The notes under the pieces are model-generated. The model saw only the letters and a list, made by a program, of their open reading frames with translations. It made no database searches and was not told where the DNA came from. This document shows, piece by piece, positions 2,690 to 8,929 of a DNA stretch of 22,929 nt. Position 1 is the stretch's first letter. Each line of letters opens with the position of its first letter. The stretch comes from a virus: positions 1-22,929 of the IMG/VR virus record IMGVR_UViG_3300025135_000029. One strand, written 5' to 3'. Position numbers and translations under genes: made by a program.

Positions 2690-2771
2690 CGTTCGACATT
2701 ATAGCAATAAGATATTAATCTAAACCCTGTAATAAAAGTTGAAGTCGAACGCAACTGGAGTTACAGGGTTT
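2690..2771 (+). promoter_or_regulatory. Structured leader RNA with predicted pseudoknot
   Basis: Three perfect pairings are visible. CGTTCGAC (2690-2697) pairs with GTCGAACG (2744-2751), 8 bp. AAACCCTGTAA (2722-2732) pairs with TTACAGGGTTT (2761-2771), 11 bp. AGTTG (2737-2741) pairs with CAACT (2752-2756), 5 bp. The 3' arm of the first helix is the loop of the third, so all three can coexist only as a pseudoknot. The RNA would start almost at 2690 from the promoter above. The last stem runs into a short T tract (2769-2773) and ends 14 bases before the methyltransferase ATG. It could be a cis-regulatory leader or attenuator, or a small RNA with its own terminator. No known class is recognised. 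Confidence 0.55.
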
Positions 2772-2785
2772 TTAAATTTATAAAT

Positions 2786-4054
2786 ATGTTAGAAGTAAAA
2801 AAAGAGTTTAAGGAGTTAATACCGCCTTTGACGGTTGAAGAGTTCAAGCAATTAGAAGATAATTGTTTAGCGGAAGGCATAAGAGACAAAATTATAACTT
2901 GGAACGGGTTTATAATTGATGGGCATAACCGTTATGAAATAGCCACACGTTGGAACTTAGACTATCAAACCGAAAGTAAAAGTTTTGACGATGAAGAACA
3001 GGTAAAAGATTGGATGGATGCAAACCAATTAGGAAGGCGAAATTTAACGCTTGACCAAAGAAGAATATTAATTGGACGGCGGTACAATAGAGAAAAAAAT
3101 AAACAAGGTGGAACAGGAATTAATCAATATACAAAAGAGCAAAGTGGTAAATTTTTCCACTCTGCAAAAACATCTGAAATACTTGCAAAACAAAATAATG
3201 TATCTGAAAAAACAGTAAGGACCTACGGGAAAGATGCAGAAAAGTTTGAGCAAATAAAAGAAAAGCAGCCTGAATTAGCCAGTAAAATATGGAGTGGTGA
3301 AAAAACTTTTACGGAAATAAAGAAGGAAGAAAAGAAAGCTGAATACAAAGAAAAGGTTTTGCAATCACGAATTGAAACAGAAATAAACGAAAGTATAAAA
3401 CAAGGGAATAGTTTAGAAATATTAGAAACTTTAGAAGATGGTTGTATTGATATAGTTTTGACCGACCCGCCTTATGGGATTGATTATGTTTCTAATCGTT
3501 CGACAGATGAAAATGCAATTACAAAACGTGGATTGCTTAACGATGGTAAAGATGAAGCCTTTGATTTATTAGATAAAACTTGTGAAATATTACAAAGAAA
3601 AACAGCAGTAAATTCACATTTATATTTCTTTTGTAGTTGGTCTGTGTTTAGTAAATTTGAAGCTATTATAAGTAAGTATTTTACTATTAAAACACCTATT
3701 GTTTGGGATAAGGGAAACAAAGGAAGTGGAGATTTAGAAAACGATTGGGGAAACCAAACTGAAATAATAATTTATTGTGTAAAGGGTAAAAAATTAATTA
3801 ACAAAAGACGCGGAAATTTGATTAGTGTTTCAAGATTACACACTTCAAAAATGATACATCCAACACAAAAACCAAACGAATTAATAAGGGAAATATTAGA
3901 AGTATCTTTTAGTGAGGGAGATTTTGTTGTTGACCCTTTTATGGGTTCTGGAAGTACAATTAAAGTATGTCAAGAATTAAAGGTAAAATGTTTAGGAATT
4001 GAATTAGATAAAGAAATGTTTAATATAGCAAATAATTATATCAATGGAAATTAG
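2786..4054 (+). CDS. ParB-like nuclease/partition domain fused to a DNA adenine-type methyltransferase
   Basis: 422 residues. The N-terminal ParB-like domain (about 1-100) contains the signature IIDGHNRYEIA (Asp45-Gly46-His47-Asn48-Arg49). A helix-turn-helix-like segment (about 128-148, ILAKQNNVSEKTVRTYGKD) follows, then a beta-class amino-methyltransferase. In it, motif IV DPPY (227-230) precedes motif I DPFMGSGST (383-391), with HPTQKP at 358-363. DPPY suggests N6-adenine (or less likely N4-cytosine) methylation of DNA using S-adenosylmethionine. Such fusions occur in phages, where they may protect DNA from restriction or mark sequences. The ParB part may confer site binding. It has its own promoter and structured leader and overlaps the next gene by 11 bases. 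Confidence 0.88.
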   Translation: MLEVKKEFKELIPPLTVEEFKQLEDNCLAEGIRDKIITWNGFIIDGHNRYEIATRWNLDYQTESKSFDDEEQVKDWMDANQLGRRNLTLDQRRILIGRRYNREKNKQGGTGINQYTKEQSGKFFHSAKTSEILAKQNNVSEKTVRTYGKDAEKFEQIKEKQPELASKIWSGEKTFTEIKKEEKKAEYKEKVLQSRIETEINESIKQGNSLEILETLEDGCIDIVLTDPPYGIDYVSNRSTDENAITKRGLLNDGKDEAFDLLDKTCEILQRKTAVNSHLYFFCSWSVFSKFEAIISKYFTIKTPIVWDKGNKGSGDLENDWGNQTEIIIYCVKGKKLINKRRGNLISVSRLHTSKMIHPTQKPNELIREILEVSFSEGDFVVDPFMGSGSTIKVCQELKVKCLGIELDKEMFNIANNYINGN

Positions 4055-4523: not shown

Positions 4524-4531
4524 TACATTTG
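4524..4531 (+). promoter_or_regulatory. Probable promoter -7 box (TACATTTG)
   Basis: TACATTTG at 4524-4531 matches the Bacteroidota TAnnTTTG element and lies in the non-coding gap before the replication genes. A clear TTG at the right distance upstream is missing, so this promoter may be weaker or activator-dependent. The predicted start is about 4535-4538, at the first G run of the leader. Confidence 0.5.
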
Positions 4532-4536
4532 TTCAA

Positions 4537-4624
4537 GGGGTTTGCGGAGGCATCCCAGTAAAAGGTTAATCGTGTTTACCTTTCCCCTTTCTTTTTAAAA
4601 CACGAACTAAAAAAAATACACGAT
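4537..4624 (+). promoter_or_regulatory. Leader RNA with alternative pairings that can cover the next start codon
   Basis: A hairpin forms from AAAGGT (4561-4566) and ACCTTT (4578-4583), enclosed by possible GGGG (4537-4540)/CCCC (4584-4587) pairing. Its loop contains ATCGTGTTT (4569-4577). TCGTGTTT (4570-4577) is exactly complementary to AAACACGA (4598-4605), while ATCGTGT (4569-4575) is exactly complementary to ACACGAT (4618-4624), which includes the first two bases of the ATG at 4623. These two pairings are mutually exclusive, so the leader could switch between an open and a closed start codon. The function is inferred from complementarity only. Confidence 0.45.
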
Positions 4625-7674: not shown

Positions 7675-7682
7675 AAAAAACA

Positions 7683-7702
7683 GGGGCTTAACCGCCCCTT
7701 TT
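7683..7702 (+). terminator. Hairpin plus T run, copy 1 (possible terminator or attenuator)
   Basis: GGGGC (7683-7687) and GCCCC (7694-7698) pair around a TTAACC loop, followed by TTTT (7699-7702) and preceded by an A tract that can extend the stem against the Ts. The 21 bases 7683-7703 recur exactly at 7955-7975. The ATG of the next gene is only 6 bases after the T run, so partial read-through must occur unless another promoter is used. Confidence 0.55.
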
Positions 7703-7954: not shown

Positions 7955-7974
7955 GGGGCTTAACCGCCCCTTTT
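7955..7974 (+). terminator. Hairpin plus T run, copy 2 (possible terminator or attenuator)
   Basis: This is identical to copy 1: GGGGC (7955-7959), loop TTAACC, GCCCC (7966-7970), TTTT (7971-7974). It lies 6 bases after the stop at 7948 and 4 bases before the next ATG (7979). The placement of both copies right behind a stop and right before an ATG is the same. Confidence 0.55.
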
Positions 7975-8319: not shown

Positions 8320-8496
8320 ATGATACCACTATCACTTATCACACTCGGAATTATACTTGCAGGCTCAGGATTCTATCAGCTGAAGAGGCCTAAATTATAC
8401 CCAAAAGAACAAGAAGAAAAAGAAATACAAACGGGATTTATACTTGTTGGAATTATATTTGTATTTTTGGGAATGTTTATATTGTTATTAAAATAA
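8320..8496 (+). CDS. Small two-pass membrane protein (58 aa)
   Basis: 58 residues with two hydrophobic segments, about 3-19 (PLSLITLGIILAGSGFY) and 40-57 (FILVGIIFVFLGMFILLL), joined by a charged loop KRPKLYPKEQEEKEIQ. The hairpin topology with a charged loop is compatible with a small holin or another phage inner-membrane protein. Without a neighbouring endolysin in this window, a holin role is speculative. The -33 TTG of the next promoter lies inside its last codons. Confidence 0.55.
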   Translation: MIPLSLITLGIILAGSGFYQLKRPKLYPKEQEEKEIQTGFILVGIIFVFLGMFILLLK

Positions 8497-8510
8497 AAAT
8501 ACTATATTTG
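8482..8510 (+). promoter_or_regulatory. Bacteroidota-type promoter with nearly no leader (TTG-N18-TATATTTG)
   Basis: TTG at 8482-8484 and TATATTTG at 8503-8510 fit the consensus with 18-base spacing. The ATG of the sigma-like gene is at 8516, only 5 bases after the -7 box, so transcription should start at or within a few bases of the ATG. This predicts a leaderless or near-leaderless mRNA. Confidence 0.72.
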
Positions 8511-8515
8511 CGAGT

Positions 8516-8929
8516 ATGGATAAAATAACCTCGCAGCATAAAAAATGGGTTTCAATTAGCGAAACACTTGGTGCAGGTGATATGGCTGAAGATTTAGTGC
8601 AAGATACTTACATAAAATGCCTAAAGATAAAGAGAATAATAACAGAGCCATTTTTTTATTTTTGCCTTAGAAGCACTATAATAGATTATTTTAGAGAAAG
8701 TCAAAAGGTATTTTATCAGGTAGACACAGAAACCGAAAGCATACCCGATGAGATTTATCAATTTATAAATAAAATGTACTGGTACGATAAAATGATTTAT
8801 CTATCTTATATGCAGGATGGCATAAAGATTGAAGAGATAGCACGAAAAACAAATAAAAGCCATCAGGCAATTTCAAAAACAATAATAAAATGCAATACAT
8901 TAATTAAAAACTTTGTAAATGGCAAATAA
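8516..8929 (+). CDS. Small sigma-70-like (ECF-type) transcription factor
   Basis: 137 residues, with a compact region 2-like part and a region 4-like HTH. The first includes GDMAEDLVQDTYIKCLK (21-37) and FFYFCLRSTIIDYFRESQK (46-64), matching the D-x-x-Q-D-x-F/Y and F-x-Y-x-x-x-x-x-x-x-x-D-x-x-R patterns of region 2. The second is MIYLSYMQDGIKIEEIARKTNKSHQAISKTIIK (about 93-125). It would bind host RNA polymerase and redirect it to phage promoters, probably of the late genes that follow. The short linker and divergent sequence could also mean a terminase-like HTH or host-takeover regulator. ATG 8516 is favoured because region 2 begins soon after it. It overlaps the next gene by 11 bases. Confidence 0.72.
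   Translation: MDKITSQHKKWVSISETLGAGDMAEDLVQDTYIKCLKIKRIITEPFFYFCLRSTIIDYFRESQKVFYQVDTETESIPDEIYQFINKMYWYDKMIYLSYMQDGIKIEEIARKTNKSHQAISKTIIKCNTLIKNFVNGK

Follow-up and report, generated by a model that had tools for sequence, protein, structure and literature searches.

A compact RNA, in which two hairpins are joined by an 8-bp loop-loop helix, precedes a DNA methyltransferase gene in the window (the whole 22,929-nucleotide stretch of DNA analysed here, positions 1-22,929 of IMG/VR record IMGVR_UViG_3300025135_000029), and the same architecture, with different sequences, also precedes unrelated genes in other Bacteroidota phages. Comparative sequence analysis makes the existence of this RNA family and of its kissing fold close to certain. 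As to its role, we consider it fairly probable from sequence that the element is a cis-acting leader or attenuator RNA, ended by a terminator, that gates read-through into early phage genes.

Architecture of the element and its promoter

Direct reading of the sequence confirmed three exact helices noted in a preliminary description of this DNA, namely K (8 bp), P2 (11 bp) and P3 (5 bp). These had been taken to form a pseudoknot; the long-range helix K stands, whereas the plain pseudoknot does not, because a fourth exact helix, P1, absent from that description, encloses the 5' arm of K in its hairpin loop and thereby makes K a loop-loop (kissing) helix. The element is built from hairpin P1 and from hairpin P2 capped by P3, joined via K. 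With K left out, the nested fold gave a z-score of -3.96, equalled by none of 200 shuffles.

The 5' end of the RNA is predicted to lie at P1, since the box at 2673-2680 matches TAnnTTTG, which has been reported as the -7 consensus for the primary sigma factor (sigma-A) in Flavobacterium psychrophilum (PMC9723704), in agreement with the earlier proposal of a promoter ending at 2680 and an RNA starting at the structure. TAnnTTTG was found upstream of nearly all members of the family; the box was required by the search descriptor, whilst the members anchored by protein similarity, most of which also carry it, were chosen without that requirement (one of them, L011, has TATATTAT). At the other end, as had also been described, the last stem runs into a short T tract, P2 ending at 2771, 14 nt upstream of the ATG at 2786. 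The features are as follows.

2651-2653, + strand: possible -33 element TTG, not conserved across the family
2673-2680, + strand: -7 promoter box TATATTTG, fitting the Bacteroidota TAnnTTTG
2685-2689, + strand: P1 5' arm ATTGC, predicted RNA 5' end
2690-2697, + strand: 5' kissing arm K5, CGTTCGAC, within the P1 loop
2698-2703, + strand: P1 loop, 3' side, ATTATA; many relatives have a similar motif
2704-2708, + strand: P1 3' arm GCAAT; covariation
2709-2721, + strand: A/T-rich linker joining P1 to P2; in most members an A-rich stretch is followed by a T-rich one
2722-2732, + strand: P2 5' arm AAACCCTGTAA; covariation
2733-2736, + strand: P2/P3 internal loop, 5' side, TAAA; family consensus UGAA or GAGUA
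2737-2741, + strand: P3 5' arm AGTTG; covariation
2744-2751, + strand: 3' kissing arm K3, GTCGAACG, within the P3 loop and exactly complementary to K5; covariation
2752-2756, + strand: P3 3' arm CAACT; covariation
2757-2760, + strand: P2/P3 internal loop, 3' side, GGAG; family consensus GGAU or GAAA
2761-2771, + strand: P2 3' arm TTACAGGGTTT; covariation
2769-2773, + strand: T tract of five T, three of them paired in P2, resembling the end of an intrinsic terminator; T is enriched after P2 in the family
2786-4054, + strand: downstream gene, 422 aa, with a ParB-like N-terminus and an N6_N4_Mtase DNA methyltransferase domain

Pfam supported the methyltransferase domain of the 2786-4054 gene, and the ParB_N cut-off was reached in the relative L033. 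The internal loop between P2 and P3 distinguishes two subfamilies; one, with (G/A)AGUA opposite GAAA, resembles a loop-E or bulged-G motif (L033:4581, L121:2399, L128:936, L055:3938, L235:30070 and L236:33621), and the other, with UGAA opposite GGAU, resembles tandem G-A pairs. Elsewhere in the window, three clustered TATATTTG/TATTTTTG boxes (8454-8510) lie immediately upstream of the open reading frame at 8516, and two near-identical, terminator-like hairpins GGGGCTTAACCGCCCC with short T tracts (7682-7699 and 7955-7970) stand directly before ATG codons.

Relatives, compensatory changes and occurrence

Relatives were first gathered via protein similarity alone, giving 48 viral loci that encode methyltransferase relatives. 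Those with an intergenic region upstream of the gene have the same architecture in different sequence, with K sequences (CATCTCAC, GTCGCAT, CTTCCAAC, GACTTCAC, GTTGCAT and GGCACTAC) whose exact complement lies in the second loop. In a larger variant (L013, L017, L018, L022, L026 and L047), P2 is C/G-rich and the P3 region contains an extra hairpin; the K sequences of this variant (GTAAGAA, TTAGAAC and TTAAGAC) are each exactly complemented in the second loop. At two loci (L010 and L012) the methyltransferase gene abuts the preceding gene and the RNA instead precedes a later gene, which encodes a DUF6291 protein. Loci around the DUF6291 family were added, and a descriptor scan then recovered approximately 70 distinct RNAs, compared with 4 matches in 1.6 Mb of shuffled sequence, a few of the listed matches being false.

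Because MAFFT could not align P1 across all of the diverse members, the covariance model was built on a closer subset. Trained on P1, P2 and P3 only, with K left out, it gave 39 matches, including a site missed by the descriptor (L134) in which K (GATCTCAC/GTGAGATC) is perfect. Several of the model sequences had been picked by the K-requiring descriptor, a selection bias from which the methyltransferase-anchored set and L134 are exempt. BLASTN searches of phage records with the element gave chance matches only, its sequence being too diverged.

Across 22 aligned sequences, 94.4% of cells were paired and both sides had changed in 22 of the 28 pairs, a result reached by none of 500 shuffles. Over the 39 model matches, K was paired in 99.7% of cells, with double compensatory changes in six of its eight pairs, whilst double changes were found in all five pairs of P1 (91% of cells paired), in 10 of the 11 pairs of P2 and in three of the four modelled pairs of P3 (100% paired). 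Sliding the partners by one column cut pairing in these matches from 95% to 40%, and covariation as high was seen in 0 of 500 shuffles. When ten methyltransferase upstream regions were shuffled 3000 times, a helix of at least 7 bp in the full geometry arose in 44 shuffles and a score of 36 was reached in five; six of the ten real regions passed the strict descriptor, the other four being L011, which lacks the exact box, and three loci of the larger variant (L013, L018 and L022). Relatives that keep the methyltransferase gene do therefore show compensatory pairs in the helices, which strongly supports the original suggestion of a structured leader or small RNA made from a promoter. Nearly no nucleotides are invariant across the family. 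Deviations from Watson-Crick pairing in 14 non-redundant sequences comprised 24 G-U, 1 A-C and 15 others; wobble is thus tolerated solely on the + strand, which argues for selection on RNA.

The element is present in cultivated phages, including Flavobacterium phages tooticki6-1, hemulen6-1, stinky9-1, elemoD and 11b, Polaribacter phages Freya_1 and Danklef_1, Olleya phage Harreka_1 and Cellulophaga phage phi19:3. Each carries one or two copies, preceding annotated genes on the same strand; phi19:3 has copies in both orientations, and behind each lies a gene that runs the same way. Where a phage has two copies these differ in K, with a longest cross-match of 2-4 bp versus 6-9 bp within each RNA (six loci or genomes). 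A similar element, in a candidate prophage of a bacterial genome (L242:1343-1470), lies upstream of a DUF6291 gene. A covariance-model search of ten Bacteroidota genomes had no element among the matches listed, which does not imply absence, and none was present at the DUF6291 relatives in two human-gut phage records (L239 and L240). At 4524-4620 of the window, upstream of a DUF6291 gene, a candidate further copy was rejected, as it has no kissing fold and a z-score of -0.28; relatives do carry the RNA at this gene, whose upstream sequence in the window contains a TACATTTG box together with the inverted repeat CGTGTTT/AAACACG (4524-4622).

The 3' end, downstream genes and proposed function

Descriptor matches formed 45 clusters, of which 36 were retained for having an open-frame ATG after P2; neither the T tract nor the ATG had been used in finding them. 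In these 36, P2 gives way to a T-rich tract and then the ATG, with T making up 64-86% at positions 0 to +7 past P2 and A 55-69% at positions +9 to +13. The gene lies on the same strand at a gap of 7-45 nt (median 17.5; 14 nt in the window), a space too small for a second promoter, whereas for positions drawn at random an ATG-started frame lay 60 nt away or less in just 28.5% of draws. Of the other nine clusters, most have neither tract nor gene and appear to be false matches. A T-rich tract followed by a gene, with no room for a promoter, reads as the signature of an intrinsic terminator directly before that gene. The T tract of the window is shorter than the family norm, with only TT past the 11-bp stem unless basal A-U pairs are counted, and the tracts of some relatives are broken; the outer P2 pairs have a formation probability of 0.85. 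The downstream genes are diverse, encoding ParB-methyltransferases of more than one type, DUF6291 proteins, DnaD-like helicase loaders, NUMOD4-HNH endonucleases, a product with similarity to primosomal proteins and small proteins, several of which have no family in Pfam or PHROGs.

In the leader model that we favour, transcription would begin at approximately 2685 and P1 would fold first, holding K5 in its loop; K3 would emerge in the P3 loop and then lock onto K5, and P2 would close last, serving with the T tract as an intrinsic terminator. The majority of transcripts would end as a compact RNA of approximately 90 nt, this terminated state being the default, and the gene downstream would be reached only by read-through transcripts. 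As no conserved antiterminator helix was found in the family (pairing of the 5' arm of P2 with the sequence upstream of it is 0.26, compared with 0.29 in shuffles), something other than the RNA itself, either the state of RNA polymerase or a phage or host factor that recognizes the kissing fold, would determine how much read-through occurs. One expression device could in this way serve early replication, modification and endonuclease genes that differ between phages. Termination at P2, the regulation of read-through and the agent behind it are parts that we infer from sequence, and position is not by itself proof of cis action, since nearly any intergenic element in a compact phage genome will have a gene behind it. 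More tentatively, the kissing fold made at the promoter may control termination by polymerase, either directly or via a phage or host factor common to these systems, and the element may form a widespread RNA class that Bacteroidota phages share as a switch for early genes, a broader proposal that is possible and on the doubtful side.

The breadth of downstream genes bears directly on two other explanations. A methyltransferase leader that senses S-adenosylmethionine or the protein, as a riboswitch or an autoregulatory element, had been thought conceivable because enzymes of the downstream family use S-adenosylmethionine, but the fold also stands before many genes of unrelated kinds (DUF6291, DnaD-like and HNH among them), almost no invariant nucleotides are available for a ligand pocket and Rfam riboswitch models gave no match, making regulation by S-adenosylmethionine very unlikely. 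The origin structure raised in the same description, or more generally a DNA-level element such as a replication origin or protein-binding inverted repeats, could draw on the many copies that precede replication genes; copies also precede HNH and methyltransferase genes, and different genes within one genome, and the 24:1 excess of G-U over A-C deviations indicates selection on one RNA strand, so that this reading is already largely refuted and retains a negligible probability. Copy-number-type antisense control was likewise rejected, opposite-strand TAnnTTTG being found in 6 of the 36 clusters versus 22% expected, with no enrichment of antisense promoters.

An autonomous trans-acting small RNA, a stable fold binding a host or phage factor with the gene as a mere neighbour or leak-through product, would account for a compact unit delimited by promoter and terminator and for a kissing fold that is kept whilst downstream genes vary; we nevertheless judge it unlikely, given that a same-strand gene starts 7-45 nt past P2 in the retained clusters, that the complete divergence of K leaves no conserved target-recognition sequence and that K sequences show no clear excess elsewhere in the genomes. 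The one exception is an octamer in the window, where an extra, third copy of CGTTCGAC lies inside the methyltransferase gene at 3497-3504 (0.11 expected per window); pairing of K3 with the downstream mRNA through this octamer was rejected, as nothing similar occurs in 13 relatives. A 5'-end stabilizer or translation leader, in which the folded end protects the mRNA and the U/A-rich start region is left unstructured, would suit the position of P1 at the predicted 5' end and the A-rich stretch before the ATG, and to our knowledge Bacteroidota do not rely on Shine-Dalgarno sequences. We find this improbable, however, as it leaves unexplained a T tract proper at positions 0 to +7, as opposed to mere A/T-richness. 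A nascent RNA that acts directly on RNA polymerase to promote read-through of later terminators, like the put RNA of phage HK022, has in its favour two hairpins right after a promoter, low sequence conservation and one or two copies per phage, but the element's own end is a terminator-like stem with a T tract, and we hold this reading to be quite improbable.

Little is known of gene timing in Bacteroidota phages, and if the terminator of the favoured leader model is regulated, annotation pipelines will have overlooked a phage-wide expression switch. Carriers amongst cultivated Flavobacterium, Polaribacter, Olleya and Cellulophaga phages make the element testable at the bench now. Ultimately, a kissing helix that has been rewritten many times yet stays complementary, with non-matching K sequences within a genome, offers a collection of naturally occurring RNA folding devices that are orthogonal to one another.

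Comparison with known systems

The element matches no catalogued RNA family in Rfam 15, and the earlier statement that no known class was recognizable holds against that release: no family reached the gathering threshold in the window, in eight related loci or in three isolate phages, and a permissive search of 2600-2900 returned one chance miRNA match (E 4.1). The SAM riboswitch covariance models had no match in the window or in the permissive search, and no Rfam c4 match pointed to the c4 or P4 CI antisense RNAs, K sequences not being consistently repeated in the genomes. Literature searches covering open-licence papers found no published description of the element. The HK022 put RNA is an antiterminator near the start of a phage transcript that has no terminator of its own and acts on RNA polymerase. 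As generally described, put shares with the element two hairpins near a phage transcript start that are thought to work through their structure; it is set apart by this description, rather than by sequence, in that the element has a terminator-like end and put has no terminator.

Of the nearest published systems (STAXI, type III toxin-antitoxin and IsrK), none has all of the defining features. The STAXI motif is a pseudoknot found in 2-3 tandem copies, with frequent UUCG loops, near genes for DNA-handling proteins (Weinberg 2010; PMC2864571), and the element shares the setting of a pseudoknot RNA near such genes but is a single kissing-hairpin unit per locus, with no tandem repeats and no Rfam match. 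Type III toxin-antitoxin systems such as ToxIN place a terminator between a pseudoknotted RNA and a protein gene (PMC5772629), an order also seen here, with the terminator recognized from sequence alone; in contrast to these systems, the element has no tandem RNA repeats, and no ToxN/AbiQ-like endoribonuclease was found downstream with Pfam or PHROGs, several small proteins there having no family. IsrK of the Salmonella prophage Gifsy-1 occurs in two forms, a short RNA and a read-through mRNA, and so resembles the proposed element as a phage RNA unit with promoter and terminator whose downstream genes would be reached by read-through, but it can adopt alternative structures and works in trans, its target being the read-through mRNA (PMC4825925). 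The element instead has a covarying kissing fold across many phages.

The likeness to intrinsic-terminator attenuators lies in the promoter, the structured leader, the terminator-like hairpin with its U tract and a gene with no second promoter of its own, all of which can be read in the sequence. Classical attenuators have in addition a mutually exclusive antiterminator helix, which is not conserved in the element (0.26 versus 0.29 in shuffles, as above), although attenuators driven by outside factors need no such helix. The element is further distinguished from attenuators by its loop-loop helix and by the placement of one architecture before many unrelated phage genes.
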